From positions 124,001-188,000 of the forward strand of contig NZ_JAQZAT010000001.1 of NCBI RefSeq assembly GCF_028736925.1: a stretch of 64,000 nucleotides of DNA, in the 5' to 3' direction. The translations under genes were made by a program, and so were the position numbers. Positions 5,427-62,193 of the stretch are shown here, piece after piece (the first letter of the stretch is position 1; every line of letters starts with the position of its first letter). A model generated the notes under the pieces. That model did no database searches, was not told the origin of the DNA, and saw only the letters and a program-made list of their open reading frames with translations. This DNA is from Flavivirga sp. 57AJ16. GTDB taxonomy: Bacteria > Bacteroidota > Bacteroidia > Flavobacteriales > Flavobacteriaceae.

Positions 5427-5801
5427 TTAAATACAGTCCTTACAGACACCTGTAAGAACACAATTTACATTTTCAACCAAGTATTTATCTGAAAGCGAAA
5501 AATTAACTTCAATTGGTAGGCATTCTATCGTTTCACATTTAGTACACCTAAAATGGAAATGGTGCATTGGTTTTTTATTTTCATCACATTTTATACACAA
5601 GGCAAAATACTGTTTACCATCTTCAGCAACAACCTTATGTAAAACCCCATCATCGCAAAAGCGATTTAAAACACGATAGATAGTCGCTCTGTTGATATCA
5701 ATGCCTATTTTCTGCTCAATTGAATCTTGGCTCATTGCTTTACCCGTATTTTCTAAAACAGCTAAAACAGCTTCTTTTGTGGGCGTATTTCTCCTTTTCA
5801 T
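5427..5801 (-). CDS. Fur-family transcriptional regulator (Zur-like)
   Basis: A 124-residue DNA-binding repressor of the Fur superfamily. The N-terminal winged helix is clear (TKEAVLAVLE, then INRATIYRVLNRFCDDGVLHKV). The dimerisation half carries HHFHF metal ligands and two CxxC pairs (CTKC and CKDC) that normally hold structural zinc, plus an additional CIKC. Zur-type members sense zinc and repress uptake genes. The gene faces the oxidoreductase operon across a 114-bp region holding three 7-1-7 inverted repeats. It is therefore likely to control both itself and the operon. Zinc specificity is inferred from family resemblance and neighbours (MerC, COG0523); iron or another metal is possible. 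Confidence 0.85.
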   Translation of the reverse strand: MKRRNTPTKEAVLAVLENTGKAMSQDSIEQKIGIDINRATIYRVLNRFCDDGVLHKVVAEDGKQYFALCIKCDENKKPMHHFHFRCTKCETIECLPIEVNFSLSDKYLVENVNCVLTGVCKDCI

Positions 5802-6929: not shown

Positions 6930-7190
6930 ATGGTTGAAGTTTTCACGACAAATATCCCCGATAAAAATCAAGCAGTTGAAATCATAGCTACTCTTGAGAA
7001 TAACTTTTCAGGATTAAAAATTAGTTTTGACATAGAACATAAAGTCATCAATTATCCTTGTGATCATAGTATACTTAGGGTTAAAGGAGATATTATTGAG
7101 ATAGACAATTTTATATCGGCTGTTAATACACTAGGCTTTGAATGTGATATTCTAGAAGATAAACTATGCAGGAAACAGAAAGTGATATGA
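6930..7190 (+). CDS. Small HMA-like protein lacking the CxxC metal site
   Basis: An 86-residue protein with the alternating strand-helix pattern of a heavy-metal-associated (ferredoxin-like) domain: VEVFTTNI, then a helix KNQAVEIIATLEN, then ISFDIEHKVINY, and a last helix FISAVNTLGFEC. The canonical loop cysteines are absent, so it would not bind metal in the classical way. Cysteines appear instead at YPCDH and near the C terminus (FECD, KLCRK). It starts 12 bp after the oxidoreductase and overlaps the methyltransferase by ATGA, indicating one operon with translational coupling. The fold is inferred from pattern only. Confidence 0.6.
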   Translation: MVEVFTTNIPDKNQAVEIIATLENNFSGLKISFDIEHKVINYPCDHSILRVKGDIIEIDNFISAVNTLGFECDILEDKLCRKQKVI

Positions 7191-7792
7191 CAGAATTTTG
7201 GGAGTCGAACTTTAAGGAAAAACAGGAAATGTGGGGCTTAAAACCTGCCAAATCTGCTTTATTGGCAAAAGATTTTTTTATTCAAAATAAAATAAAAAAT
7301 ATACTTATCCCGGGCTTTGGCTATGGACGAAATGCACAACTATTTAAGGACAATGGTTTTGAAGTGACAGGTATAGAAATATCCAGAACTGCTATTGAAT
7401 TGGCAAAAAAGCATTATGGAACTAATATGACTATATACCATGGTTCCGTGACCGATATGCCTTTTGATTCCAAAAAATACGAAGGTATTTATTGCCATGC
7501 ATTAATTCACTTATTGGATAAAAACGAAAGGAAAAAACTAATCCTGGACTGCTATGACCAACTAACAGAAGACGGGTATATGATTTTTACGACTATAACA
7601 AAAGACGCACCAAATTTCGGAAAAGGAAAACATATTGGTACAGACCGCTATGAGTTTCATAAGGGAGCCAAATTATTCTATTATGACAAGACTTCAGTAC
7701 AAGATGAGTTTGGAGAAGCTGGCCTTTTTGAGATCATTGAAATCAACGAAAATCAACCATTTTATTTGATAAAATGTAAAAAAACAAACTAA
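7187..7792 (+). CDS. Class I SAM-dependent methyltransferase
   Basis: About 201 residues with a Rossmann-type methyltransferase core: motif I ILIPGFGYGRNAQLF, the acidic end of strand 2 VTGIEIS, then GSVTDMPF and YCHALIHLL. It resembles the TehB/type-11 group and the tellurite or thiol detoxification methyltransferases. I prefer the ATG at 7187, which overlaps the preceding stop as ATGA; an in-frame ATG at 7166 would give a longer protein inside the upstream gene. The substrate is unknown. Its place in a Fur-controlled operon suggests metal or metalloid detoxification, or modification of a metal ligand. Confidence 0.75.
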   Translation: MTEFWESNFKEKQEMWGLKPAKSALLAKDFFIQNKIKNILIPGFGYGRNAQLFKDNGFEVTGIEISRTAIELAKKHYGTNMTIYHGSVTDMPFDSKKYEGIYCHALIHLLDKNERKKLILDCYDQLTEDGYMIFTTITKDAPNFGKGKHIGTDRYEFHKGAKLFYYDKTSVQDEFGEAGLFEIIEINENQPFYLIKCKKTN

Positions 7793-8195: not shown

Positions 8196-8251
8196 TATTT
8201 AGATTATATTAACATAACATTTGGATTATTTTAGTAAGTTTGTATTTGATG
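8196..8251 (+). promoter_or_regulatory. Promoter block shared by the two His/Cys protein genes
   Basis: The block up to the start codon is nearly identical to the one before 20417: AGATTATATTAACATAA, then TTTTAGTAAGTTTG. TAAGTTTG (8235-8242) fits the TAnnTTTG -7 consensus and ends only 6 bp before the ATG. The expected transcript would begin at or within a few bases of the start codon. Confidence 0.5.
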
Positions 8252-8557
8252 AAAAATGGTCGTCTAAAAAATAGTATCACTTATCTACTTCTTGTCCTTT
8301 TCATTTCAATGAAAATGGCAGGACTTCATGCGTTGTCCCATACAAATGATAAAGACCACGCAGTCCATTGTACTATTTGTGACCATGCCATTACAAATAA
8401 CTTAACTCCGGCACTTACACCTGACTCACAGGATTTCACAATTGAAAACACTGAACCTATTGTTCAGAGAGAGGTAACTAGAAACTACAATCTTATTATC
8501 TCAAGCACTATTGCTACAGATCAGCTCTTTTCCCGTCCCCCTCCTTTTATATTATAA
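8249..8557 (+). CDS. Secreted or membrane-anchored His/Cys-rich small protein, paralogue 1
   Basis: About 102 residues. A hydrophobic N-terminal segment (SITYLLLVLFISMKMAGLH) is followed by a His/Asp/Cys cluster, HTNDKDHAVHCTICDHAI, able to bind a metal ion. A polar region ends in LFSRPPPFIL. It is clearly paralogous to the gene at 20417-20725 across the whole length and in the promoter. I chose the ATG at 8249; a TTG at 8240 is in frame but lies inside the conserved promoter block. A periplasmic metal-binding or sensing role is plausible, but no named family is recognised. Confidence 0.7.
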   Translation: MKNGRLKNSITYLLLVLFISMKMAGLHALSHTNDKDHAVHCTICDHAITNNLTPALTPDSQDFTIENTEPIVQREVTRNYNLIISSTIATDQLFSRPPPFIL

Positions 8558-8993
8558 GAGTTTCATTTACATTTTAAGTCTTATTAAAGAGTTTCCGAAC
8601 TCAACAAGTCTCATTTAGAGTATTGACTCTAAATAGACATATATTGCGTAAATGAGAGATTCGCAACTCCGTCTTTACTCTATAAATCAAGAGAAAGAGG
8701 ATGTGAATTTCAAACTCTTCCCATACTTCAATTTTGTTTTGATTATCTAATTTGCTCTTACTACGATATACGCAAATTTAGGATAATAATCAAATCATGT
8801 ACATTCAAAGAATTCCTATGGAGCTCGTTTATATTTTTTCGATTGACTAAATGTTTATTTGAAAATTTTAGATGATATCTATATAGGCATGTATGCCTAA
8901 TATAAATGTTTTACAAACTTAAAAATGTTGCAACGAAAGGGGAAACCGAAAACCTTGTAAATAGAGTAGGTATAACTTTTAAATACGATAGTT
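8558..8993. other. Long leader region upstream of the Cys-rich peptide gene
   Basis: No protein gene is supported in these 436 bp. The stretch holds a 16-bp palindrome (8884-8899) and a possible RNA stem (TTTACAA 8910-8916 with TTGTAAA 8955-8961). The intervening sequence, GCAACGAAAGGGGAAACCG, is unusually purine- and G-rich for this genome. It may be an operator plus a structured 5' leader. Confidence 0.4.
8884..8899. promoter_or_regulatory. Palindromic operator-like site upstream of the peptide gene
   Basis: TAGGCATGTATGCCTA consists of perfect 7-bp arms separated by GT. It lies 95 bp upstream of the 35-codon gene. Its sequence differs from the Fur-type boxes at 5809-5900, so another regulator may act here. 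Confidence 0.4.
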
Positions 8994-9101
8994 ATGAAAA
9001 CTAAGGAATCCATGATTTCAGAAATTCTAGCTAATAAGGCAAAGCAACCTAGCGGAAGCACGCATTGTAGCAATTGCGGACACTGCACTAGCACCTTATA
9101 G
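8994..9101 (+). CDS. Small Cys-rich peptide, candidate RiPP/metallophore precursor (35 aa)
   Basis: The reading frame ATG 8994 to TAG 9101 encodes 35 residues. A polar, helix-prone N-terminal half (MKTKESMISEILANKAKQ) is followed by a short linker (PSGST) and a compact C-terminal segment HCSNCGHCTSTL with Cys25, Cys28 and Cys31 spaced CxxCxxC, plus two His and four Ser/Thr. That leader/core division is what ribosomally made, modified peptides usually show. A perfect 12-bp hairpin follows 10 bp after the stop, and co-oriented genes continue with proteins of unknown function, a TonB receptor and exporters. It could instead be a small metal-binding peptide acting unmodified. No homologue is recognised by name. 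Confidence 0.55.
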   Translation: MKTKESMISEILANKAKQPSGSTHCSNCGHCTSTL

Positions 9102-9111
9102 TTTCAGAATT

Positions 9112-9140
9112 ATAGCGGTAGGAATTAATCCTACCGCTAT
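9112..9140 (+). terminator. Perfect hairpin after the peptide gene (attenuator or mRNA-stabilising stem)
   Basis: ATAGCGGTAGGA (9112-9123) pairs perfectly with TCCTACCGCTAT (9129-9140) across a 5-base loop. No long T-run follows, so read-through into the next genes is likely. A stem here would raise the level of the peptide message relative to the downstream genes. Confidence 0.6.
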
Positions 9141-9150
9141 TTAAAACGTA

Positions 9151-9657
9151 ATGCAAAAAAGTAAAAACCACCAGAATATGAACCAAATTACTGAAGATCA
9201 ATTGAACAAACTCTTATCCTTCACAGATGAGAATGTGATATCACGGTTTATGGATATGTATAATGTTTCAGAAACCGAAGCCCGAGATATCCTTTTGGAA
9301 ACTCTGAAGTTCTTATATATAAGTCAAATTCCGGGAATTTTTATTCCAGATGACCTATTAATCGTAGACGAGATGTGGCACAACCTCATTTTGTTTACTC
9401 CCCTCTACCAAAAATTCAGCATGGAATATTTTAATACGCCCTACTTCCATCACCTTCCTGCTACAAAAGCGGAAAAAATCCAAAGAAAAAAGGATATGAG
9501 AATCAATCCCGGTAAGGCGAAAGAAAAGTATCTCAAAAAACTGGAATTTCTCTTGTCCACTACTTACGATTATTTCGGAGCGGAAACGGTTGAAAAATGG
9601 TTCAAAATATATCCAGAAAAATATAGTAAAGAAAATATTAAAAAATTGAGAAAATAA
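9151..9657 (+). CDS. GRDP-like (glycine-rich domain-containing protein-like) protein
   Basis: A 168-residue soluble protein without a signal peptide. The central segment DEMWHNLILFTPLYQKFSME with a following YFHHLPA resembles the GRDP-like family known from plants and scattered bacteria, whose biochemical role is not settled. The family's conserved D..WH motif is present. The C-terminal half is Lys-rich and helical. The start could also be the Met at 9178. It is the first gene after the Cys-rich peptide and its hairpin and ends 2 bp before the next gene, so coupling is likely. A role as a peptide maturation partner is a guess from position. Confidence 0.55.
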   Translation: MQKSKNHQNMNQITEDQLNKLLSFTDENVISRFMDMYNVSETEARDILLETLKFLYISQIPGIFIPDDLLIVDEMWHNLILFTPLYQKFSMEYFNTPYFHHLPATKAEKIQRKKDMRINPGKAKEKYLKKLEFLLSTTYDYFGAETVEKWFKIYPEKYSKENIKKLRK

Positions 9658-9659
9658 GA

Positions 9660-10583
9660 ATGAGCATTTTCCCAAAAAGAACCATCCCAGGCAAAACAGT
9701 TACGATACACTGGAATTTCAACACATCACATTTAAATGGTGCCCACTTGTGCCCATTGGTAAAAATCGGAGTAAAAGACCCCAAAGGCAATATTACTATG
9801 CTCTTTGAAGATTATGTTATCGCTTTTCCAGACCAAAAAGAAAGTAAGGAAGAACCACCTCAAAAACTAAAATATTTGAATAAAAACATCCCTCTGTTGG
9901 TACTGGCGAATTATCTGGAAGGGTCTTGTAAACGAGAAAAACTCGTTGAAATATTAACCAATATTCAGGCTGGTCGTCATTATTATTTCACATATAATAT
10001 CCCCCATGATGCACCATTGGGTAAATACTCCCTTATCTCAGAGGTTCATAATAATGGAAGTGTAAAGTATTCCAAGACCCGTCTTGATGATCATTTTTGG
10101 GTAGAAAAAATTTCGCTTGCCAATGTAATAGGCAAAGGAAATGAAAGAACCGCTGTAGTCTGTAACCACTCCGAAGAACCGACTCCAGTAAAAATAGTCA
10201 GATGTTCCATTGACGTCAATGGGCATATGGAAACCAAAATGGAGGCTTTTGAAATGAATCCAAATGATACTAAGCCTATTTCAATTTCTGAAGAAAAGGT
10301 CTTTTTACTCTATAATGAAGAACGGGAAATAGTGGCTTTGACAGAAGAGTTACCCATTTATCTAATAAAAAATCACGAAATACTATCCATCAGTAAAAAA
10401 AATGGATTGAACTGCCTTATGGAAAAAGATAGTGATGGAGCCTATTGGCTTTCCCCCGAAGCCAAAAACTTATGGGATAAAGCAGATGGATTGCTCAATA
10501 AAAACAGCCTATCCGAAAAAGAAAAGGATGTATTACAGGAAATGGAGGAACAGGGACTCATAAAACAAACTAATCTAAAATGA
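9660..10583 (+). CDS. Uncharacterised protein with beta-rich N-terminal half and helical C terminus
   Basis: A 307-residue protein, not recognised by family. No signal peptide or membrane segment is visible. Residues about 1-140 look like a beta-sandwich (GKTVTIHWNFN, HYYFTYNIPHDAPLGKYSLISEV). The C-terminal 90 residues (AYWLSPEAKNLWDKADG, then SEKEKDVLQEMEEQGLIKQ) resemble a small winged-helix module and remotely recall PqqD-type peptide-recognition domains. The resemblance is weak. It sits between the GRDP-like gene (2-bp gap) and the TonB receptor (ATGA overlap), so it belongs to the same operon. Confidence 0.55.
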   Translation: MSIFPKRTIPGKTVTIHWNFNTSHLNGAHLCPLVKIGVKDPKGNITMLFEDYVIAFPDQKESKEEPPQKLKYLNKNIPLLVLANYLEGSCKREKLVEILTNIQAGRHYYFTYNIPHDAPLGKYSLISEVHNNGSVKYSKTRLDDHFWVEKISLANVIGKGNERTAVVCNHSEEPTPVKIVRCSIDVNGHMETKMEAFEMNPNDTKPISISEEKVFLLYNEEREIVALTEELPIYLIKNHEILSISKKNGLNCLMEKDSDGAYWLSPEAKNLWDKADGLLNKNSLSEKEKDVLQEMEEQGLIKQTNLK

Positions 10584-12982
10584 CTAAAAAACAATACCAA
10601 ATAACGCATGGATACTCCATTAAGGTGCTAATTATCAGAAGCTCTGTAAAAATCACATATGCATTCTTTTTAAGCTTATTTGCAAGTTGCTTTCTTTATT
10701 CCCAAAATGGAGAAGTGTTAGGCATAGTCACAGACGATCAAGAAGCACCTTTATTTGGCGCACATATTCAAATAATTGAACTAAATAAACGAACCATTAC
10801 AGATGAAAAAGGTTCTTTCGGTTTCGATAAACTTTCCGATGGAAAATATAACCTAGAGGTTTCTTATATAGGCTTCGAAACGGTTTATTACACTGCTGAT
10901 ATTACAACGCAAAAACCCAAGGTTCAAATAGATATAAGTTTGAAACCCCAACAGAGCCAACTTGACGAAGTAACGCTCGTGGGAAAATCGAAAACCCAAC
11001 GGCTAAGAGAAAGTACAGCCAATGTATCGGTATTGCAAACGGAGAACTTCCGTGATAGAAATACAAATACCAGCGATATCGTGAAACAAATTCCCGGGGT
11101 AAATGTTCGCCAAACGGGTGGTTTTGGCAGTAATGCCGAAATTTATGTAAATGGAATGACCGGAAAATCTATTCCTTTTTTTTTGGATGGGATTCCTCTC
11201 TCTTATTTTGGTTCAGGACTAGGATTAAACGTATTACCAGCAAACCTAATAGAGCAAATCGAGGTCTACAAAGGCGTTGTACCGGTTGATTTAGGTGCAG
11301 ATGCCCTTGGGGGAGGTATAAATATCATAACCCGAAAATCCTATTCAGACTACTTAGATGTTTCCTATTCCGGGGGATCATTCAATAGCCATAAAGTGAA
11401 TCTAAACACACAATTGGTAAACCCTAACACTCACTGGATGTTCGGGGTACATTCATTTTTTAACCATTCCGACAACAATTATAAGGTAGCTATTGAAATC
11501 CCCGATGCATTCGGAAATCCAATTCCAGCAACTGTCAAGCGCTTTCATGATAAATTCTCTAACTACCTTGTTAATCTTTATACAGGGGTTTATGACAAAA
11601 ATTATGCTGATCGTTTGGTTTTTAGTGCACGTTATTCAGGACTCAAAGATGATGTTCAGCACAATGCCATTATGGCCCAGCCCTATGGGCAAGTAACCTA
11701 TGACGAGTCAACTCTAGGTGCTTCTTTAGAATATGAAAAAAAGAAGATTCTAAAGAAAACAGATATAAAATGGTACAGTGCCTACAACCGTACCCGAGGC
11801 CATTTTATCGATACCACGCTAAATGCCTACACTTGGGACGGTAAGATATATGACAGACGAACCGATGGTGGAGAGATTTCCACCTCGCGCAATCTTTTAG
11901 AGCTCACTTCTCAAAATATCTTGAATCGAGTTAACCTTAACTACCATCCCTGGGAGAAAGGAAAATTCACCTTAAATCTTTTTACCGCGTGGTTTAGAAG
12001 GATAGGTGAAGATCCTGTTGCGGCCGAATTTTACGGAGAGGATTTTTTCGCCAATCCAACCCAACTTTTTAAGAATGCTTCAGGTCTTTCCTATGAACAT
12101 AATTTTTCACAGGATTTAACGAGCTATACGGCCGTCAAGCATTTTTGGTTGAATGCCGATGGATACGCCATACAAAATCTTGAATTCGTACCCAACCAAC
12201 AAGAAGCATCCAATTTTGGCTTTCTCCAGTTGCTACGTTATCGTATTACAAAATCTTTTCTATTAAAATCTTCCTATGAATATGCAACTAGACTTCCTGA
12301 TGAAATCGAACTTTTTGGGAATTTTACATTAGTAAGACCCAATCCATTTTTGGAACCGGAACAAAGTCACAATTTCAATTTAGGATTTCAACTGAATACA
12401 CAAAAATTTAATTGGGATACCAATCTTTTTTACCGTGATACAGATAATGTTATCTGGTTGCGAACCTCCCAGTTTTATGCGCAATACCAAAATCTATTAA
12501 AATCACGTACGCTCGGTGCAGATATGGAAGTACGCTATCGCCCATTTAATTTTCTGGATATAAAGGCAAATGCTACCTATCAAGATTTAAGAAACCGTTC
12601 ACCCAAAAACATTACGGGAGCTGTGGATGATCGTTACTTCAACGCAAGACTACCCAATATCCCTTATTTTTTTGGGAACGGAGAAATACGCTATCATAAA
12701 GGCAAATTCCTAAATACAAAAAATAGCGTTTCGGCTTGGTGGTCTGCAAATTACGTCAATGAATTTTATCTCTTTTGGGCGGTAGATGGGAACAAGGATT
12801 TCAAGAACACAGTCCCATCCCAATTTATTCAAAATGTGGGAGCTACTTTTTCACATCCCAAAAATCGATGGGCAATTACCACAGAGGTTACAAATATGCT
12901 TAACGAAAAAGTATTCGACAACTTTAGCGTACAGCGCCCTGGACGGGCTTTTTACATAACCATTAGAACTTTAATTAATTAA
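10580..12982 (+). CDS. TonB-dependent outer-membrane receptor (metallophore type)
   Basis: An 800-residue outer-membrane active transporter. A cationic N terminus and hydrophobic segment (TYAFFLSLFASCFLYS) form an atypically long signal. A carboxypeptidase-regulatory-like domain follows (VTDDQEAPLFGAHIQI to about residue 120), then the plug (QIPGVNVRQTGGFGSNAEIY, DGIPLSYFGSG, EVYKGVVPVDLGADALGGGI) and a 22-strand-type barrel ending YITIRTLIN. The plug style is that of siderophore or metal-chelate receptors, not SusC. It overlaps the preceding gene by 4 bp and is followed by a DUF4374 lipoprotein. That pairing recalls the XusA/XusB siderophore system of Bacteroides. Confidence 0.85.
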   Translation: MTKKQYQITHGYSIKVLIIRSSVKITYAFFLSLFASCFLYSQNGEVLGIVTDDQEAPLFGAHIQIIELNKRTITDEKGSFGFDKLSDGKYNLEVSYIGFETVYYTADITTQKPKVQIDISLKPQQSQLDEVTLVGKSKTQRLRESTANVSVLQTENFRDRNTNTSDIVKQIPGVNVRQTGGFGSNAEIYVNGMTGKSIPFFLDGIPLSYFGSGLGLNVLPANLIEQIEVYKGVVPVDLGADALGGGINIITRKSYSDYLDVSYSGGSFNSHKVNLNTQLVNPNTHWMFGVHSFFNHSDNNYKVAIEIPDAFGNPIPATVKRFHDKFSNYLVNLYTGVYDKNYADRLVFSARYSGLKDDVQHNAIMAQPYGQVTYDESTLGASLEYEKKKILKKTDIKWYSAYNRTRGHFIDTTLNAYTWDGKIYDRRTDGGEISTSRNLLELTSQNILNRVNLNYHPWEKGKFTLNLFTAWFRRIGEDPVAAEFYGEDFFANPTQLFKNASGLSYEHNFSQDLTSYTAVKHFWLNADGYAIQNLEFVPNQQEASNFGFLQLLRYRITKSFLLKSSYEYATRLPDEIELFGNFTLVRPNPFLEPEQSHNFNLGFQLNTQKFNWDTNLFYRDTDNVIWLRTSQFYAQYQNLLKSRTLGADMEVRYRPFNFLDIKANATYQDLRNRSPKNITGAVDDRYFNARLPNIPYFFGNGEIRYHKGKFLNTKNSVSAWWSANYVNEFYLFWAVDGNKDFKNTVPSQFIQNVGATFSHPKNRWAITTEVTNMLNEKVFDNFSVQRPGRAFYITIRTLIN

Positions 12983-13012
12983 ATATTAACATCAAATACA
13001 CTAAAAAAAAAA

Positions 13013-14236
13013 ATGAAAAAACAATCTTTAAAAAAAATCACTGCACTATCTTTTTATACCTTTTTAATCTTGACCACCATGGGGTGCAGTGATGATGATA
13101 ATCCCAATCCAGGCAACGGTACCGATCCAGTGACAATAAATTTTGGTCTTACTACTGTAAGCGGTGCATGGCCTAACCAGACTTCGTACATTCAAGGTGT
13201 AACGGACTTGGATTTTTCAACCATAGGAAACGACAAAGCATTGGAATTGACTGGAAGTGCAAGTACGGTCTCGTACAATGGGGCATTGTATGCTTCGCCT
13301 TTTGGTGCACCCGCTACTCTTGTAAAATATTCGTTCAACGATGATGGTGATACTGTTGAGGAAGAACGGATTGTAGTACCTGGAGCGAATACCTTTTCCA
13401 CCATTTATTTTGAAAGTGAAACTGTAGCCTACGGTTCTGTTGCTGGCGGTATTTCTAAACTCATCATTTTTAACCCAACTACCATGCGTATTACTGATGA
13501 AGTTTCGTTAACACCTATTACAAGTAGATTTCCCGAAACCACCCGTACCTATTATCTGGATATGATGGAACGTGACAATAAACTGTTCATGGGCGTACAC
13601 TATGAGAACAATTTCGTTCCGGTAAACGATTCTGCCTATGTTGCGGTCATCGATTTAAATAATCGAGCTGTAGAAAAGGTAATCGCCGATCATAGAACGG
13701 GGATGGTATTCGGTGGTCAGGCTGCAAATGCGGGAATGGTCAAAGCCTCTAATAACGATATTTATGTGCAGGGCTTGGGGACTACCTTGGACGGTGGTAG
13801 CAGTCCCAGTGGTTTATTGAAAATACCTAATGGACAGACCTCTTTTGATCCCGATTATTTTATGGATATGCAAGATGCAACAGGAAATGTATGCTATGGC
13901 ATCTATCAAATGCCAAATGGTCGTGCCTTTACAGCAAGAGTTGAGGATGCTTCCGACTTTTATGAATATGCTACTGGGCAACCGCAATTCAAATATTTTG
14001 AGATTGATATCGAAAATAAATCAAGTTTGGGAGCGGTGCCTGGTCTTCCCACAACCTATGGATCCCGTAGAATGATAATTATTCCTAATACAGATCAGAA
14101 ACTACTGTTTACAACCGCTACCAATGATGAAAATGCCGTATTCAGTTTTGATACCGCCTCTAACACGTCCAGTAAATTGTTTACTTCTACGGGAGGGTAT
14201 ATAACTGGATTGGAAGATTTGAATCAGAACCAATAA
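13013..14236 (+). CDS. DUF4374-type surface lipoprotein (XusB-like)
   Basis: A 407-residue lipoprotein. The lipobox is TTMGCSDDDN, and the acidic residues after Cys fit a Bacteroidota surface-export signal. The body has repeated short beta segments consistent with a beta-propeller and resembles DUF4374. XusB, the Bacteroides lipoprotein that binds ferric enterobactin, belongs to this type as far as I recall. It lies 30 bp after the TonB receptor, the usual pairing for ligand capture and handover. It probably binds the extracellular metal-ligand complex. Confidence 0.7.
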   Translation: MKKQSLKKITALSFYTFLILTTMGCSDDDNPNPGNGTDPVTINFGLTTVSGAWPNQTSYIQGVTDLDFSTIGNDKALELTGSASTVSYNGALYASPFGAPATLVKYSFNDDGDTVEEERIVVPGANTFSTIYFESETVAYGSVAGGISKLIIFNPTTMRITDEVSLTPITSRFPETTRTYYLDMMERDNKLFMGVHYENNFVPVNDSAYVAVIDLNNRAVEKVIADHRTGMVFGGQAANAGMVKASNNDIYVQGLGTTLDGGSSPSGLLKIPNGQTSFDPDYFMDMQDATGNVCYGIYQMPNGRAFTARVEDASDFYEYATGQPQFKYFEIDIENKSSLGAVPGLPTTYGSRRMIIIPNTDQKLLFTTATNDENAVFSFDTASNTSSKLFTSTGGYITGLEDLNQNQ

Positions 14237-14248
14237 CCCCTAACAAAC

Positions 14249-14950
14249 ATGCTAGAAGCTAAAGACCTCACAAAAAAGTACGGTGATTTTACTGCACTAG
14301 ACAGCCTGAACCTAAGCATCCGAGCAGGCGATATTTTTTGCCTGCTCGGAGCAAACGGGGCTGGAAAATCAACAACTATCAACTTGTTTTTGAACTTTAT
14401 CGAGCCCTCTTCTGGAAAAGCTTTCATCAATGGTTTGGATGTAGAGAAGAATTCTCAAAAAACAAAGCAATGGCTCTCTTACATTCCTGAGAATTTACAA
14501 TTGTATCAAAACATGACCGGGCTTGAAAACCTGCGATTTTTTTGTGGTCTTCAAGGGGGTAATCAAGATAAGGAAGAATTGGAAACCTTATTGATACAAT
14601 CGGGCTTGCAAAAGGATTTTGTCCTAAAAAGGGTAAGTAGTTATTCTAAAGGAATGCGACAAAAAGTAGGTATTGCCTTGGCAAGGGCCAAGGGTGCTAA
14701 AATATTGCTTTTAGATGAGCCTACATCCGGGTTAGACCCTAAGGCCAGCAATGAATTTTCTGAACTTTTACTCGAAATGAAAGAACAAAAAGTAGCCACT
14801 TTAATGGCTACCCATGACCTTTTCAGAGCCAAGGATACAGGAACCCACATAGGGATTATGAAAGAAGGTATCTTGGTCGATAAGATGGAATCAAGTCAAG
14901 TTTCTTTTCATGATTTGGAACAAAAATATTTAAGACATATGCACACATAG
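14249..14950 (+). CDS. ABC transporter ATP-binding protein
   Basis: A 233-residue ATPase with Walker A GANGAGKST, signature SYSKGMRQK and Walker B ILLLDEPTSGLD. It is of the ABC-2 exporter type (NosF/CcmA-like). It starts 12 bp after the lipoprotein gene and is followed by two permeases, so it should energise them. Its placement in the receptor operon suggests export of the same ligand that the receptor retrieves, or an envelope-assembly role like NosFY. Confidence 0.85.
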   Translation: MLEAKDLTKKYGDFTALDSLNLSIRAGDIFCLLGANGAGKSTTINLFLNFIEPSSGKAFINGLDVEKNSQKTKQWLSYIPENLQLYQNMTGLENLRFFCGLQGGNQDKEELETLLIQSGLQKDFVLKRVSSYSKGMRQKVGIALARAKGAKILLLDEPTSGLDPKASNEFSELLLEMKEQKVATLMATHDLFRAKDTGTHIGIMKEGILVDKMESSQVSFHDLEQKYLRHMHT

Positions 14951-15106
14951 TATGAAATGAGCCATAACGATTCTTGATACCCATCGAAATGTTCAATGGC
15001 GAAATCGCAGATTCATGAACACCTTTAAAAATCAATTATTAAAGATGTGAATAATTACACCTGCCGGCAGGCATGTCTGACCGACTAAAACAATAAATTT
15101 AAATAG
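14951..15106 (+). other. Spacer with a conserved non-coding element and a REP-like palindrome
   Basis: The start of this gap (GAAATGAGCCATAA) and a later piece (GCGAAATCGCAGATTCATGA followed by ACAC) recur in similar order at about 18003-18090. CCTGCCGGCAGG at 15060-15071 is a perfect palindrome of the type found in flavobacterial dispersed repeats. Confidence 0.4.
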
Positions 15107-16537
15107 ATGAAACGTCAAGTCTTTTTAATTTCAGGAAAGGAACTTAAAGGTCTGGCAAGACAAAACTCCTTAAAAATTTTATTTACCATCATTATGGTTC
15201 TCCTAGGATTTGCACTCTATGCTGGGCATATTGCTTACAAACAGCAAAAAATCATGGTGGAAACGGCTCAAAAGGAAAGAAGGGCCGAATGGTTGGATCA
15301 AGGGGATAAACATCCTCATATTGCAGCACATTATGGTACTTATGTTTTCAAACCAAAGACACTTCTTAGTCTTTTTGATTTTGGATTGGATACCTATACA
15401 GGAACTTCTGTTTACTTAGAGGCACACTATCCACATGAATTTATGTTCAGGCCTGCACAAGGATATGGCAATATGATTCGTTTCGGAGAATTAAGTGCGG
15501 CATTGGTACTTCAATTATTATTGCCCTTACTCATCATATTCATCACTTTTCAAACCTTTACCAAGGAAAAGGAAACGGGAACCCTTAAATTATTGGTCAG
15601 TCAAGGAGTTTCAATACGGTCTATTTATTTGGGCAAGGTCTTGGCCTATTCCATAATTGTTTTTACCATAATGGTCCCGTTCTTTACAGGTTTATATATA
15701 GTGGGAACCATTGAAAACACCAGTTCTGTGATAACAGATATGGGAGTTCGAGTCTTACTGCTCTTTCTTGTTTACATTGGATATTTATGGGCTTTTACGA
15801 ATTTTTCAGTTTGGATTTCCCTTAAGTCTTCAAGTGCAAGAAACGCTCTTTTGACCTTATTGATATTCTGGATAGTAACAGGAATCATTATACCAAAGAC
15901 TTCTGCCAATCTTGGCGAAACCTTATACCCACTGCCATCCATGAAAATATATAAAGAAGCTATCCAAAATGATATTGCAAATGGCATGAACCCTAATGAG
16001 ACCAAAGAAAAAAGAATGGCAAGACTAAAAGAAGATTATTTACAACAGTATGGCGTTGATTCTCTTAACCAATTGCCTTTGAACTTTGAAGGGATACAGA
16101 TGCAAGAAGGGGAAGAATATACCAATAAAGTGTATGATTTCCACGATGCAGCCCTTTACAAAAAATTCGAACTCCAAAATAGAGCGGGAAGCTTAATGGG
16201 TTTTGTTGCGCCTTATATAGCTGTAAGAAACCTTTCAATGGCATTTGCTGCAACTGATTGGTATAGTTTTAACGATTTTCAAGAAAAGACCAACAACTAT
16301 CGCCGTCATCTCATACGTTCTATGAACAATGATATGGCCAAGAACTCACGATATGGGGAGTTCTATGAATACAAAGCAGGAAGGAACTTATGGGAAACCA
16401 TATCAGATTTCAAGTATCTAACACCTAAGGTGACCATGATTTTCAAATACTATGGGATGGAACTTGCTTCATTGTCCCTTTGGGTTTTGATAATGTTCAT
16501 CCTCATTCCTTCTTCCTCCAAAAATAAGTTTATATGA
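15107..16537 (+). CDS. ABC-2 type permease, DUF3526-like (first subunit)
   Basis: A 476-residue membrane protein. The first helix (LKILFTIIMVLLGFALYAG) is followed by a large extracytoplasmic loop (about residues 45-135), then five hydrophobic helices between about 135 and 270, a second long soluble loop (about 270-440) and a last helix. This layout, with FTKEKETGTLKLLVSQGVS after the second membrane segment, is typical of DUF3526-type ABC-2 permeases. It is partnered with the ATPase at 14249 and overlaps the second permease by ATGA. The two large outside loops could hold the substrate or a periplasmic partner. Confidence 0.75.
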   Translation: MKRQVFLISGKELKGLARQNSLKILFTIIMVLLGFALYAGHIAYKQQKIMVETAQKERRAEWLDQGDKHPHIAAHYGTYVFKPKTLLSLFDFGLDTYTGTSVYLEAHYPHEFMFRPAQGYGNMIRFGELSAALVLQLLLPLLIIFITFQTFTKEKETGTLKLLVSQGVSIRSIYLGKVLAYSIIVFTIMVPFFTGLYIVGTIENTSSVITDMGVRVLLLFLVYIGYLWAFTNFSVWISLKSSSARNALLTLLIFWIVTGIIIPKTSANLGETLYPLPSMKIYKEAIQNDIANGMNPNETKEKRMARLKEDYLQQYGVDSLNQLPLNFEGIQMQEGEEYTNKVYDFHDAALYKKFELQNRAGSLMGFVAPYIAVRNLSMAFAATDWYSFNDFQEKTNNYRRHLIRSMNNDMAKNSRYGEFYEYKAGRNLWETISDFKYLTPKVTMIFKYYGMELASLSLWVLIMFILIPSSSKNKFI

Positions 16538-17958
16538 AGTTGATTTTATTATTATGGCAACGCGAAGGTATTTCCATTATTAGAAATACCTTTCAAATAA
16601 TCATGTTGTCCACTGTTTTTTTATTGGGCATGTATGCCATCTATTATGGCCATTCCAAAATAACGGAACAGCAAAAAACAATCAAGAATGTCGAACAAAT
16701 AGAAAAGGAGGAGTTTGAACACTATAAAAAGAGTTTTTACAGAGACCATACATCGGTCAAGGAAAAACAGCTATTCGATATAGCTTCAAAGCCCGCTTAT
16801 GCCTGGTATCGACATGGCTACCATGCCATCTTAAACCCTCATAGTTTAGCTCACATGTCTTTAGGACAAAGGGATATAGAGCCTTACTATTACAAATTGA
16901 CAGGAATGAGCCTATATTACCAATTATTTCAAATTGAGTTGGCCAACCCATTGAAGCTATATGCAGGAAATTTTGATCTATCCTTTGTACTTATTTATTT
17001 ATTTCCATTGCTGATAATAGCTTTCACCTACGGATTATATGCAGAAGAAAAGGAAAATGGCATGCTGCCCTTACTAAGGTTGCAAACCATAGGACTAAGA
17101 AAAATACTCTTGATTAGAATGGCCTTTTATTATGTTTTGATTGTCGGGTTAGGAATTCTTTTGTCATCAATTGGCTTTTTGGTTTCAAGTGAGTTGGATG
17201 TTTTGTCCATTTTCTTATGGATCTCTGCCATTTTATGCTATCTCAGTTTTTGGTTTGCTTTGATGTTCTTGTTGATCAGTCTTAAAAAAAACTCTTCTTT
17301 AACCGCAATTAGTGCCGCTAGCTTATGGCTTCTTTTTTTAATTGTTCTCCCGGCCATATTGAACGTGTATGCAAACCTTGTATATTCAATCGATAATACA
17401 TCCCTTGCCGAAATCACTAGAAGAAAAGGCTTGGAAAATGAAGATGACGTGAACGAGTCTAAAGCTGTAATCTTTGAATATCTACAGAATCGGAACGACT
17501 TAAAGGGAGCGGATTCACTGATCGAGATAAATATTATGGCAAAAGCCTATGCCGCTTTTACGGCGCTTAATGATAACCATCATAGAAAAGAAGTGTCGGA
17601 CTACTTTGACCAAATTAGATTAAGACAAAAGAGGATTTCTGCATTTCGATGGGCAAACCCAGCAGTAAACACGCAAGGAATTCTTAATGAAATTGTAGAA
17701 ACAGATTCTGAAATTTTTCAATCCTTTTATCAATCCATTGAGAGCTTTCACAAGGATATTACAAGTTTTTATTTTGATAAACTGTTTTTGAACAAAGAAA
17801 TAACAAGTAAGGACTACGAAACCCTTCCCAAATTCAATTTAAAAATTGACAGCCAAGATAGAAACCAAAAAATTAGAAATGGCTTCATAGAAATTATGGT
17901 CGCCACATTTTTGCTTTTTGGCTTATCATGGATACTTTTCAATAAAACGACTTTCTGA
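16534..17958 (+). CDS. ABC-2 type permease, DUF3526-like (second subunit)
   Basis: A 474-residue membrane protein with the same topology as the preceding permease: helix (IIMLSTVFLLGMYAIYYG), long loop, helix bundle with EEKENGMLPLLRLQTIGLRK, long loop, and a final helix (FLLFGLSWILF). The two subunits are diverged and probably form a heterodimer. Translation is coupled by a 4-bp overlap. It closes the run of tightly spaced genes that began at 9151; a terminator-like stem follows at 18121. Confidence 0.75.
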   Translation: MKLILLLWQREGISIIRNTFQIIMLSTVFLLGMYAIYYGHSKITEQQKTIKNVEQIEKEEFEHYKKSFYRDHTSVKEKQLFDIASKPAYAWYRHGYHAILNPHSLAHMSLGQRDIEPYYYKLTGMSLYYQLFQIELANPLKLYAGNFDLSFVLIYLFPLLIIAFTYGLYAEEKENGMLPLLRLQTIGLRKILLIRMAFYYVLIVGLGILLSSIGFLVSSELDVLSIFLWISAILCYLSFWFALMFLLISLKKNSSLTAISAASLWLLFLIVLPAILNVYANLVYSIDNTSLAEITRRKGLENEDDVNESKAVIFEYLQNRNDLKGADSLIEINIMAKAYAAFTALNDNHHRKEVSDYFDQIRLRQKRISAFRWANPAVNTQGILNEIVETDSEIFQSFYQSIESFHKDITSFYFDKLFLNKEITSKDYETLPKFNLKIDSQDRNQKIRNGFIEIMVATFLLFGLSWILFNKTTF

Positions 17959-18120
17959 AATGATATTAAAAATTAGACACATAAGAGCATTTCTATAAAA
18001 TTACAGTACGAAATGAGCATAAACTTTTTTAAACATACCATACCGATATGATTAAAATAAGTTTTTGCGAAACCGAAAGGTTCACGAACACAAAAAAAAA
18101 TAATATATAGTGAGTAAAAC

Positions 18121-18165
18121 GAAGTGGTTACATCTGTTTATAAGTTTTGTAATCACTTCTTTTTT
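18121..18165 (+). terminator. Putative terminator before the MATE gene
   Basis: GAAGTG (18121-18126) and TTAC (18128-18131) pair with GTAA (18149-18152) and CACTTC (18154-18159), followed by a run of T (18160-18165). This would end the ABC transcript, or act as an attenuator, 33 bp upstream of the MATE start. Confidence 0.5.
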
Positions 18166-18197
18166 AATCAATTATATAATTTTAAACAGAAGAAAAT

Positions 18198-19544
18198 TTG
18201 AAAAAAAAGCCAGACTTCATCAATGACAATCTTTGGAAACTTCTATTGAAGCTTTCTGTACCCAGCATTTTGGGAATGATGGTGATATCCATCAATGGAC
18301 TCGTTGATATATTCTACACAAGTTATTTTATAGGAACAGAAGCCTTTACGGGTATATCCATGCTGTTCCCTTTAATGTTGGTTGTCACCAGTGTTACCGT
18401 TTTTGTAGCAGCAGGTTCCGCATCTGTCCTTAGTAGAGCCATAGGTGCAAATCAGATGGGAATTCAAAGAAAAATCATCCCAAACATGATGGCCTTGTCT
18501 CTTATCGGAGCAGTTATTGTGACCATCCCAGGAATCATTTTTTCAAAAGAAATAGTTTCTGTTTTGGGAATTTCAGGAAAATTATTCACCTACGCTTTAG
18601 AATATTATCAGATATATATATTGGGTGCATTATTTAGTATTTATGGATTATCGGCTAATGGTTTAATACGAGCTGAAGGTAAAATAGGACAGGCTATGCG
18701 TTTTACATTGGTTTCCGTAGTTCTAAATCTTTTACTAACACCTATATTCATTGGCATTTTTAATATGGGCGTTGCAGGTGCTGCATGGAGTAGTATCACA
18801 GCTATGTTCATTTACAGTTTATTGACAGCCTTATATTTTATAAGAGGGAAAGCAACATTTCACACGGGTCGTTTCCGAATAAAGTTGGAATATAAAATCC
18901 TTAAAAATGTCTTAAGCATTGGGTTTTCGGCTTTTTCAATGCAATTGTCCAATTTGTTCAGGCAATTTCTACTGTTCAGATTAGTAGTTTTATATGGTAC
19001 TCTTGAATCCATAGCTTTTTTCAATGCTGCTTTTAGATTGTTCACCTTTTTGGCAATTCCTCTTTTGGGGCTTTACCAATCCATGCAACCAGTTATTGGA
19101 ATCAATTATGGTGCTAATAAACCGCATAGATGTTTAAAAGGTGTATCTATCTATAGATTAGCAGGAATGGTGCTTGGTACGGCAATGATAATTCCCATAC
19201 TGCTTTTTCCAGAAACCATCATCAATATTATGTTGCCAAATAAAGAACTTAACGAAGCTGAAATTTTCAATGTACGAATGATAATGGGAATCTTATTGGT
19301 TATTCCAATATCTTCCAGTAGCATCATTCTATTTCAATCAATTGGAGAAGCTAAATTGGCTACTATGTTACCTGTTGGGCGTCAACTATTCCTATTTGTA
19401 CCTATTATATTACTTCTGACCAAATATTTCGGTATTGAAGGTATATACTATGGCCTTGCCCTAGAGAATGTACTTTATGCGTTGGTTCTATGGATTATAT
19501 CCAGAAAAATACTTCAACGAATCGCATTAAGAGCAGGGCTTTAG
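18198..19544 (+). CDS. MATE-family efflux transporter
   Basis: A 448-residue inner-membrane exporter with twelve hydrophobic segments in two similar halves. The N-terminal phrase LLKLSVPSILGMMVISINGLVDIFY and the repeat PIFIGIFNMGVAGAAWSSI are characteristic of MATE (DinF/NorM) proteins, which expel organic cations or small molecules using H+ or Na+. I accept the TTG start at 18198, since the next ATG would remove the first helix. It lies downstream of the ABC exporter in the same orientation, so it may export a ligand made by this locus, or simply a drug. Confidence 0.8.
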   Translation: MKKKPDFINDNLWKLLLKLSVPSILGMMVISINGLVDIFYTSYFIGTEAFTGISMLFPLMLVVTSVTVFVAAGSASVLSRAIGANQMGIQRKIIPNMMALSLIGAVIVTIPGIIFSKEIVSVLGISGKLFTYALEYYQIYILGALFSIYGLSANGLIRAEGKIGQAMRFTLVSVVLNLLLTPIFIGIFNMGVAGAAWSSITAMFIYSLLTALYFIRGKATFHTGRFRIKLEYKILKNVLSIGFSAFSMQLSNLFRQFLLFRLVVLYGTLESIAFFNAAFRLFTFLAIPLLGLYQSMQPVIGINYGANKPHRCLKGVSIYRLAGMVLGTAMIIPILLFPETIINIMLPNKELNEAEIFNVRMIMGILLVIPISSSSIILFQSIGEAKLATMLPVGRQLFLFVPIILLLTKYFGIEGIYYGLALENVLYALVLWIISRKILQRIALRAGL

Positions 19545-19563: not shown

Positions 19564-20172
19564 TTATTTTGTAGAATGATATTTTTTTGCAACAACATGA
19601 AAAACGTGCCAAAACTTTTCTTTTCCGGAAAGAGTCTTGCCATTTTTCGAAGTTTCCTCGAAATATAATAACTCGAACCCTTCAAATAACTTTTTTACGG
19701 CTTCCAGATTATGAAAGGTCATATCGCTATTAGAACTCCATGAATCTTTTGGTCCAAAAAAGTGCCCACAAAAAAAACCTTCGGAATTGATACAACTGAT
19801 GATATTTAACCAAAGTCTTTCAAATTGATGTGGATGGCAAAAGGGTAAGGAAAAAGAAGCATTTACCAAATCGGCCGAAGGAAGTTCTCCCAAACTTTCA
19901 AAAGATGAATTTTGAAAATTTAATCGTTCTGGGAGGTTAGAACTTATCCCCTTTTGTAGATGTTGAAAAGAGTTAGGATCCTTGTCGATCGCCAATACAT
20001 CAAATCCCTTCTCTAACAATGCAAAAGTATCTACACCATTACCACATCCCAAATCAATAGCCTTAAACTCCTTTGAACTACCCTTATTAGATATGATGTT
20101 TAGAGTTTGGCTCAATGTATTTGCAGGAGGATGTTTTTCTTTATTTATTTTATCATAATGTGCTTTCCACAT
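19564..20172 (-). CDS. Class I SAM-dependent methyltransferase (TehB-like)
   Basis: A 202-residue soluble methyltransferase with motif I (AIDLGCGNGVDTFALL), the acidic residue after strand 2 (VLAIDKD), and ADLVNASFSLPFCHP. It resembles the tellurite-resistance/TehB-type group. It is the only minus-strand gene between 5.8 and 27.0 kb, converges on the MATE gene with a 19-bp gap, and so is a separate transcript. The substrate is unknown. Confidence 0.75.
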   Translation of the reverse strand: MWKAHYDKINKEKHPPANTLSQTLNIISNKGSSKEFKAIDLGCGNGVDTFALLEKGFDVLAIDKDPNSFQHLQKGISSNLPERLNFQNSSFESLGELPSADLVNASFSLPFCHPHQFERLWLNIISCINSEGFFCGHFFGPKDSWSSNSDMTFHNLEAVKKLFEGFELLYFEETSKNGKTLSGKEKFWHVFHVVAKKYHSTK

Positions 20173-20355: not shown

Positions 20356-20419
20356 AATCCTTTTTATTCAGATTATATTAACATAATTTTTGGTTTATTT
20401 TAGTAAGTTTGTGTTAGTG
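20356..20419 (+). promoter_or_regulatory. Promoter block of His/Cys protein paralogue 2
   Basis: Nearly the same sequence as 8196-8251, with the TAAGTTTG element again ending a few bases before the start codon (GTG at 20417). Conservation of the promoter with the gene implies duplication of the whole unit and shared control. Confidence 0.5.
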
Positions 20420-20725
20420 AAAAATGGTGGGTTAAAAAATAGCATTACTTATCTGTTCCTTGTTCTTTTCCTTTCAATGAAAATGGCAGGGCTTCATGTA
20501 TTATCACATACAGATGATACCGATCATGCATTACATTGTACTGTTTGTGACTATGCCATTACGCATAACTTAACACCCACACTTGCTCCTGATTTACAGG
20601 ATTTCGCAATTGAAAATCCTGAATTTACTGTTCGTAGAGAGCGTATCAAAAACTACAACTTTATTGCTTTAAGCGACCTTGTTTCTGGTCAACTTTTTTC
20701 TCGCCCACCTCCTTCTTTACTATAA
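20417..20725 (+). CDS. Secreted or membrane-anchored His/Cys-rich small protein, paralogue 2
   Basis: About 102 residues, aligned along its length with the gene at 8249: hydrophobic N terminus (SITYLFLVLFLSMKMAGLH), cluster HTDDTDHALHCTVCDYAI, and end LFSRPPPSLL. I choose GTG 20417 because it corresponds to the ATG of paralogue 1; the upstream in-frame TTG at 20390 lies in the conserved promoter. It precedes the COG0523 GTPase by about 350 bp, again beside metal-handling genes. It is likely a periplasmic metal-binding protein. Confidence 0.7.
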   Translation: MKNGGLKNSITYLFLVLFLSMKMAGLHVLSHTDDTDHALHCTVCDYAITHNLTPTLAPDLQDFAIENPEFTVRRERIKNYNFIALSDLVSGQLFSRPPPSLL

Positions 20726-21078: not shown

Positions 21079-22278
21079 ATGAAAAAACTGCCAGTAACTG
21101 TATTAAGTGGCTTTTTAGGTGCTGGAAAAACCACGTTACTAAACCATATACTACATAACAAAGAAGGCTTAAAGGTAGCCGTAATAGTCAATGACATGAG
21201 CGAAGTAAATATCGATGCCCAATTCATTGAAAATGAAAATACACTTTCTAGAACCGAAGAGAAATTAGTTGAAATGTCCAATGGCTGTATTTGCTGTACT
21301 CTTCGAGAAGACCTTATGGTAGAAGTGGAAAAACTAGCTACCCAAAACAAGTTCGATTACTTATTAATAGAAAGTACGGGGATAAGCGAGCCCATTCCTG
21401 TTGCCCAGACCTTTACCTTTGAAAGTGAAGATGGGCACATAGACTTAAGTCGTTTTAGTTATATAGACACTATGGTAACGGTAGTGGATGCCTATAATTT
21501 CCTAAAAGATTTTTCCAGTCCCGATTATCTTACAACAAGATCACTCACAGACATGGAAGGTGATAATAGAACCATTGTTAATTTACTGACCGATCAAATT
21601 GAATTTGCCAATGTTATCATCATTAACAAAATTGATTTAGTTACCAAAGAGCAGCGTGAAGAGCTTCAAGCTATCATTCAAAAACTAAATCCAGAAGCTC
21701 GTATCATTCTTGCCAACGAATCAAAGGTTGAATTAAAAAGTGTCATCAATACAAGCTTGTTCAATTACGAAACAGCCGAGGCTTCCGCTGGCTGGATAAA
21801 AGAATTGGAGAACGAACACGTTCCAGAAACCGAAGAATATGGGATAAGTTCCTTGGTTTTTAGGAGTAAAAAACCTTTCCATCCCGATCGCTTTTTAAAG
21901 TACCTAGATACAGGTTTTCCACAAAATATTATTAGAAGCAAAGGTTTGTTTTGGCTGGCATCCAGATCTAGCCAAGCGTTGGTATGGAGTACCGCAGGAG
22001 GTTCATTTAAAGCAGATAATGCAGGGGTTTGGTGGGCTTCCATGCCTTTTGGCGAGCGAATTAACTATGCTGCTTTCAATGAAAATAAAGATCACATTGA
22101 ATCGGGATGGGATGCTATATACGGAGACCGTAAAATAGAACTGGTCTTCATTGGACAATATTTGGAAAAAGAAAAAGTCACAGACCAATTGAATGATTGC
22201 TTGCTTACCGACAACGAAGCACAGCTATGGAAAAGTCAATTGTTCCCTCAAGAAGATCAATGGCCAATAGAGAAATAA
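21079..22278 (+). CDS. COG0523/CobW-type GTPase, putative zinc metallochaperone
   Basis: About 399 residues. It has a P-loop GFLGAGKTT, the family's metal-binding CICC motif ([11 protein letters not shown], about residues 67-77), ESTGISEP, a guanine-specificity motif NKID, and a C-terminal CobW-C domain ([11 protein letters not shown]). These GTPases deliver metals to proteins or enzymes, and several are zinc-starvation proteins under Zur. I use the ATG at 21079, where family homology begins ([14 protein letters not shown]); the upstream in-frame codons are unlike the family. It heads a run of five co-oriented, tightly spaced genes up to 27002. Confidence 0.85.
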
Positions 22279-62146: not shown

Positions 62147-62193
62147 CGCCCTCATTAATAACCGAGGTCGAGAACCTCAAATAATTAATTATT

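Follow-up and report, generated by a model that had tools for sequence, protein, structure and literature searches.

The window analyzed here is a 64,000-nucleotide stretch of contig NZ_JAQZAT010000001.1 from Flavivirga sp. 57AJ16 (Flavobacteriaceae). It holds a cluster of genes in one orientation, at 8994 to 19544, that opens with a 35-codon gene for a cysteine-rich, precursor-like peptide. Behind it stand a perfect hairpin, a gene for a partner that resembles glycine-rich domain-containing proteins (GRDP-like), a gene for a 307-amino-acid protein (the 9660 protein, after its first position), an export and uptake module consisting of a TonB-dependent receptor, a DUF4374-like lipoprotein, which we take to be XusB-like, and an ATP-binding cassette (ABC) exporter with two DUF3526 permeases, and finally a MATE exporter (Table 1). 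An initial annotation, made from the sequence alone, had read this as the parts list of a metal ligand that is made, exported, and reimported. Gene order, reading frame, hairpin, and spacing are all as it described them. The frame encodes MKTKESMISEILANKAKQPSGSTHCSNCGHCTSTL, with a leader-like half and a CxxCxxC tail, the stem of the hairpin is perfect, and from 9151 to 14950 the genes lie at most 30 bp apart with one ATGA overlap at 10580 to 10583; a further overlap is found at 16534 to 16537. The family assignments stood for the receptor, the ABC ATPase, both DUF3526 permeases, and the MATE protein, which exceed their Pfam cut-offs, and not quite for the lipoprotein, which falls just under its own.

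The initial annotation had let its claim depend on homologous small frames upstream of orthologous GRDP-like genes and on a substitution pattern that marks the 35-codon frame as translated. Homologues of the frame precede the same partner in Flavivirga and also in other genera (Algibacter, Tenacibaculum, Aquimarina, Fulvivirga, Mucilaginibacter, and others). The ratio of nonsynonymous to synonymous differences (pN/pS) is 0.05 to 0.32 across the 21 pairs formed by seven near copies of the frame, two of them tandem genes in one locus (L029), and 0.06 to 0.17 for the six pairs that include the window peptide. Pooled over 78 pairs of thirteen more distant peptides it is 0.22, and 0.10 for the last 12 codons. 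Judged by these substitutions, the frame is a real gene under coding constraint, and at the level of its sequence the product has the makeup of a precursor of a ribosomally synthesized and posttranslationally modified peptide (RiPP), namely, a short ribosomal peptide with leader and core. It does not reach the cut-off of the NCBIfam model for Cys-rich peptides TIGR04165 (17.1 versus 60 bits). A scan of 395 sampled genomes of the class for the core pattern gave 7 matches, and apart from the window's own none is such a peptide; since the scan was exact and the genomes were sampled, it says little about rarity. Within the genus, F. jejuensis (G008) carries this cluster with its gene order unchanged, and F. 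algicola (G011, L007) has the peptide, the GRDP-like gene, and the 9660 homologue without the module, the last two genes being frame-broken.

Table 1. Features of the peptide cluster and its surroundings (window positions)
Feature	Position	Strand	Basis or remark
Methyltransferase-like gene flanking the cluster	7166-7792		domain scan
Small His/Cys protein, HC-x2-C and C-terminal RPPP stretch	8240-8557	+	homologue upstream in 6 clade loci, L025-L030
DUF805b RNA (Rfam RF02914), leader RNA before peptide gene	8936-8972	+	48.3 bits vs gathering 35.6
Precursor-like peptide, 35 codons: leader MKTKESMISEILANKAKQPSGS, putative core THCSNCGHCTSTL	8994-9101	+	homologues, pN/pS
Perfect hairpin in the gap between peptide and partner genes	9112-9140	.	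12-bp stem, 5-nt loop
GRDP-like partner, 159 aa; reading frame open from 9151	9178-9657	+	alignment, profile comparison
307-aa protein, MSIFPKR start, PqqD/RRE-like tail	9660-10583	+	family alignment, profile comparison
TonB-dependent receptor, siderophore-receptor-like	10580-12982	+	Pfam; best NCBIfam model MxcH, below cut-off
DUF4374-like lipoprotein	13013-14236	+	Pfam PF14298, 23.5 bits vs 25 cut-off
ABC transporter ATPase	14249-14950	+	PF00005
DUF3526/ABC-2 permease, first	15107-16537	+	Pfam
DUF3526/ABC-2 permease, second	16534-17958	+	Pfam
MATE exporter	18198-19544	+	PF01554; homologue within 10-kb flank in 7 clade loci
Methyltransferase-like gene behind the cluster	19564-20172	-	PF13649, 38.2 vs 27 bits; relatives in same place in L025-L029
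COG0523 GTPase, ZigA-like (zinc metallochaperone), context	21079-22278	+	560 bits vs 600 cut-off

GRDP-like proteins and the peptides beside them

We set the start of the GRDP-like protein at 9178, because its homologues begin there. F24, D64, M66, W67, H68, L72, Y77, H92, G134, and W141 are invariant across 68 such sequences, with E65 and H91 nearly so, and these residues may form a metal or catalytic site. Pfam and NCBIfam models gave the protein no convincing name, and profile searches against the PDB found nothing. PF07173 was not matched by the window protein, which was scanned directly, nor does it occur among the 25 of 33 families listed for the 68 members. The label GRDP-like, given in the initial annotation, has no direct Pfam match but is backed by a single profile-profile comparison with PF07173-type proteins (probability 97.2, E value 4e-11), for which the template consisted of three bacterial sequences, two over the cut-off and one (L133) just under. 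The latter has HCKRACPSYCKRACKS at its C terminus, a kind of tail that is absent from the other two. Gly/Ser/Cys-rich C-terminal tails are also carried by related longer proteins of 452 to 463 amino acids (L018-L020), one of which, when scanned, matched PF07173 and TIGR04222 weakly, in both cases under the cut-off. GRDP-like proteins of the PF07173 type thus resemble the window protein in profile and, in some relatives, in the company of cysteines, whereas the short bacterial form pairs with a separate peptide. The domain is thus often accompanied by Cys-rich sequence, whether this is provided in cis or in trans.

Using four GRDP-like sequences as queries, a genome scan confirmed 95 places, of which 80 loci were kept. 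The initial annotation had suggested looking for short Cys-tailed frames just upstream of GRDP-like genes in other Bacteroidota. Such frames (starting with ATG, having at least two Cys in the last 25 residues, and ending at most 260 bp upstream) were found at 64 of the 79 GRDP-like genes that could be used, one locus at a contig end (L036) having been dropped, versus 79 of 714 control genes of the same loci. Listed by eye, 73 of the 80 loci have a peptide with leader-like half and Cys core at a distance of up to about 2.1 kb; those with no listed peptide are L036, L059, L077, L085, L086, L090, and L094, and in L094 a Cys tail is fused onto the GRDP-like protein itself. The motif K-x(1-4)-L-I-x-x-(I/L/M/V) precedes the first Cys in 37 of 68 peptide entries. 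The core HCSNCGHC occurs in 26 of the 29 entries from the window's clade, and other cores are found elsewhere. Niastella and Longitalea have HCCGG(G/S)HCC, a single Chryseobacterium bin has HCGGHCGG, and in Fulvivirga and Marivirga most cores are short Cys pairs (CLIQC and CMTLC, for example). Peptides of Flavobacterium, Pleurocapsa, Tolypothrix, Shewanella, and Pleionea carry double-glycine leaders. When a profile of 18 class-B peptides was compared with 16,767 short frames, the ten best matches outside class-B loci were all GRDP-adjacent, at weak E values (0.005 to 0.34) and with five near-copies and one frame (L059) that is not a listed peptide among them. Some loci are metagenome bins, and their taxon names are therefore unsure.

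Many loci have the pair of peptide and GRDP-like protein without the TonB/DUF4374/DUF3526 module. Partners in these other branches, with one or two loci scanned for each, include a peptidase-ABC exporter (L080, L082), HlyD (L097), DUF6817 (L092), an S9 peptidase (L056), and a sensor histidine kinase (L083), as well as proteins of tailoring type: methyltransferase and cytochrome P450 (L074), TauD oxygenases (L091, L104), and an ATP-grasp-like protein below the cut-off (L103).

A tested relative is found in Escherichia coli. Plasmid copies are 30% identical to the window GRDP-like protein over 95% of its length (E value 7e-13, tblastn, 25 plasmid records), and the two plasmids examined in detail carry a GRDP-like gene followed by genes for an ABC exporter, a cupin, a DUF4440 protein, and a DUF2164 protein and then by mobilization genes. 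The GRDP-like protein translated from one of them ends in VCGCSGKGCGAGCSCNSR, and its cupin partner matches JmjC. Plasmid p0.1229_3 (NZ_CP028323.1, 12,894 bp) matches one copy at 100% over residues 1 to 207, the tail being unaligned. The gene content of the plasmid set is that given for mctA-mctE of microcin Mcc1229 (PMC8853679), and by gene order the E. coli relative on p0.1229_3 is MctA. According to that article, MctA is required for Mcc1229 activity, iron limitation increases production and the absence of fur increases mct expression, import requires CirA and TonB, the chemical identity of Mcc1229 is not known, and MctA has a Cys-rich tail; its available part makes no tie of MctA to a wider family. 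Mcc1229 thus resembles the window system in a GRDP-like domain with Cys-rich sequence, an operon with an ABC exporter, and uptake through a TonB-dependent siderophore receptor. It differs in that core and GRDP-like domain form a single protein, the partner is a JmjC/cupin protein, the product acts as a microcin, and no TonB receptor or DUF4374 protein is annotated on the two plasmids opened.

Based on the paired peptides and on MctA as a relative from an active microcin, we propose that GRDP-like proteins mark a hitherto unrecognized RiPP-like family. A literature search gave no paper that linked a glycine-rich domain-containing protein with RiPPs or dealt with DUF805b, a DUF805 riboswitch, or SNCGHC/CSNCGHC. 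Among the 11 to 15 matches listed, out of up to 1,327 papers, none described a peptide/GRDP-like/TonB metallophore or zincophore system, as judged by title and opening of the abstract. A short GRDP-like protein would then be a genomic marker for this family, which the Pfam and NCBIfam models used do not name, in loci that are assigned to several phyla.

A proposed secreted metal ligand and competing explanations

Homologues of the 307-amino-acid protein occur in 32 of the 80 loci and define the window's clade. All 25 aligned members start with MSIFPKR. The initial annotation had suspected a winged-helix tail and proposed a comparison with PqqD and the RiPP recognition element (RRE). Aligned with PqqD proteins by hhalign, the tail reaches a probability of 64 and a score of 30. 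For 30 column-shuffles the scores averaged 11.1, with a maximum of 16.1, and the N-terminal part of the 9660 protein scored 15.5. The 9660 protein is a candidate leader-binding partner. The clade is accompanied by the module almost throughout: homologues of the TonB receptor are present in 31 of the 32 loci, of the DUF4374-type lipoprotein in 29, of the DUF3526-type permeases in 29 (in two copies in 24 of the 25 loci with full flanks), and of the ABC ATPase in 25. In a tree of GRDP-like proteins, a branch supported at 100/99 separates the 26 clade rows used from all the others. Clustering was likewise seen for the remaining partner sets that were tested in this tree, which has long branches. 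Being found in 3 of 12 genomes of the genus (its own included) and, among 397 sampled from the family, in its own genome alone, the 307-amino-acid protein indicates that the cluster is patchy.

The linkage to the module fits a secreted ligand that is reimported with its metal. We hypothesize, with moderate confidence, that the product of the locus is a small ribosomal peptide of RiPP-like origin, which is exported and taken up again as a metal complex. The 9660 protein would bind the leader, and the GRDP-like protein would mature or shield the Cys core through its invariant Asp and His residues, in trans here and in cis in MctA; it could be a maturation enzyme or, instead, a holdase or metal-loading factor. 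Removal of the leader would free a core of about THCSNCGHCTSTL, which may leave the cell by the DUF3526 ABC exporter, the MATE protein, or both, and bind a thiophilic metal outside. The complex would return through the DUF4374-like lipoprotein and the TonB receptor. XusABC, which takes up xenosiderophores, likewise combines a TonB receptor with a DUF4374-type lipoprotein; in the window this pair is coupled to peptide and exporter genes, and the best model for the receptor is MxcH, although its equivalog cut-off is missed (NCBIfam, 532 versus 925 bits). Methanobactin presumably belongs with bufferins and thiooxazole metallophores as a further comparison. As far as the available parts of the articles go, these MNIO-type RiPPs (bufferins, PMC12452194; thiooxazole metallophores, PMC13097082) share with the window system a small Cys peptide and a role in metal binding, which for the window is predicted; the partner proteins differ, and none of the ten window proteins scanned matched DUF692/MNIO.

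Which metal would such a peptide bind? Zinc is our best guess, from the nearby ZigA-like GTPase, with copper and iron as further candidates. The island beyond the cluster also encodes an ABC transporter of MacB type, with a His-rich loop in its permease. Another TonB receptor is encoded there as well, the nearest relatives of which lie inside six clade loci. A strong ZigA-like match, always under the cut-off of the model, was obtained in 17 of 23 genomes checked, and in five of the 17 (G000, G1143, G1141, G1140, and G1153) the gene and the cluster are no more than 30 kb apart. A Fur-family gene at 5427 to 5801 comes near no clear model. In 20 of 33 upstream regions there is a palindrome like ATGCAACNNNGTTGCAT with a score of 12/14 or more, but the window reaches 9/14, no better than shuffles; its exact core is present in three of four genomes searched, and the three off-cluster sites are not beside obvious metal genes. 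For this reason no metal can be read from it, and we rejected the palindrome as a Zur or Fur box.

Several observations weigh against a metallophore. The tested relative, Mcc1229, is a microcin and no metallophore. No established RiPP-modifying enzyme was recognized by Pfam or NCBIfam among the operon proteins scanned, so that modification of the peptide is putative. The RRE resemblance of the 9660 tail is only moderate, with no direct Pfam match to PqqD in the 25 members, and the lipoprotein stays under its family cut-off. The partner-gene counts are those of single-linkage clusters, taken anywhere in the fetched locus and with shortened flanks in seven loci. As to zinc, the ZigA-like gene is far away or on another contig in 12 of the 17 genomes, and 6 of the 23 gave no strong match (draft assemblies can hide linkage). 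The Aureibacter copy follows CobN, TolQ/ExbB, and DUF2149 genes, presumably a haem-uptake set of hmuSTUV type, which would point to iron. What the initial annotation had proposed for the locus stands in part: its RiPP-like core passed the tests and the module linkage fits reimport, but the term metallophore covers one clade at most, because the pair occurs widely without the module and includes Mcc1229.

Alternatively, the product could be an antibacterial, microcin-like peptide, with the TonB receptor and lipoprotein as its entry route in kin or as a decoy. The place of MctA in a microcin operon with import by CirA and TonB speaks for this, as do the exporters near double-glycine-type peptides elsewhere, which in the two loci scanned (L080, L082) are of the peptidase-ABC kind. 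A receptor and a lipoprotein encoded at the same locus nearly throughout the clade would be unusual for a weapon, and no immunity gene was recognized, though no search was aimed at one. We consider a weapon unlikely at this locus. Somewhat less likely still is that two separate systems adjoin, the module importing another siderophore and the peptide serving as a regulator or metal sensor. Loci with peptide and GRDP-like gene and no module, including the frame-broken set of F. algicola, would be expected in that case, whereas the near-constant linkage within the clade argues against it. An unmodified peptide that binds metal inside the cell, or a zinc or copper metallochaperone, would agree with CxxCxxC plus His, the lack of an established modifying enzyme, and the zinc-type neighbor; it is improbable in view of the leader-like half with its recurring motif, the widely differing clade-specific cores, the exporter linkage, the hairpin behind the precursor, and the RRE-like partner. 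A chance open frame, for which small size alone speaks, is rejected at the sequence level by the homologues, the low pN/pS, and the enrichment over control genes, and the six other core-pattern matches are unlike such peptides.

A wider proposal can be put forward tentatively. GRDP-like domains may be a new maturation factor for Cys-rich peptides and tails. Short leader peptides would be their targets in trans (Bacteroidota, Cyanobacteria, Gammaproteobacteria), and fused Cys-rich tails their targets in cis (MctA, L018-L020, and possibly plant GRDPs). On this view the Flavivirga-type product would be a ribosomal zinc (or copper or iron) metallophore that has a dedicated exporter and receptor, and Mcc1229 would be a relative put to another use. 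Along with the genomic marker, the findings give a predicted biochemical role for a domain of unknown function and a family context for Mcc1229, the chemistry of which its authors call not known (PMC8853679); for the Flavivirga clade they predict a ribosomal metallophore.

RNA elements and further observations

A feature absent from the initial annotation is the DUF805b RNA just 5' of the peptide gene. It is found there, over the Rfam gathering threshold, in 15 of 21 clade loci scanned, the window counted, and Tenacibaculum ovolyticum (L029) has two copies, one ahead of each tandem peptide gene. With 150 of 3501 candidates scored, the window's own genome has one other copy over the cut-off (G000:C45:272409-272441; L106/L122), near the start codon of a gene for a small secreted-looking protein unrelated to the peptide. 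A hairpin between peptide and GRDP-like gene appeared in all 28 segments folded, with much varied sequence and a median z of -4.3 versus mononucleotide shuffles; the sample comprised 27 of the 32 clade loci and the window, excluding L036 (contig end) and the near-copies L028, L037, L038, and L041. The hairpin is probably an attenuator or partial terminator, or a processing site, and would let the peptide be made in excess over its partner. The palindromes ATGCAACATTGTTGCAT and TTGCAACACTGTTGCAA, which lie upstream of the peptides of Aquimarina, Fulvivirga, Marinoscillum, and Mucilaginibacter at about -283 and near the DUF805b RNA, were not found before the window peptide; they are a possible operator of some regulator. 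Elsewhere in the window, an S16-Flavobacteria ribosomal protein leader (RF03138) is located at 62154 to 62189.

The two methyltransferase-like genes flanking the cluster could be tailoring enzymes; nothing ties either to the peptide. The small His/Cys protein upstream has a paralogue at 20390 to 20725, again with HC-x2-C and a C-terminal RPPP stretch.

Other branches offer observations of their own. In Pseudoalteromonas (L068-L075) the GRDP-like gene is followed, from +492 to +2767, by a peptide, MNKSKIINSLVNKNLERNKGARFCGCVICLVDRKPGVGPKNK, a methyltransferase, and a cytochrome P450 (one locus scanned), a candidate compact pathway. At about -595 to -272, next to the GRDP-like gene and an ABC exporter of the peptidase C39 type, Tolypothrix (L082) has a precursor-like frame with repeated ECTGG core units. 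In L090 and L092 a DUF6817 protein (scanned in L092) and an unnamed protein of 245 to 247 amino acids are encoded directly ahead of the GRDP-like genes, and Shewanella L092 has two Cys-rich peptides. A sensor histidine kinase of about 1,100 amino acids and Reg_prop/Y_Y_Y type (scanned in L083) follows the pair in 15 class-B loci of Fulvivirga, Marivirga, and kin, all among L058-L101, and is a possible sensor of the product.

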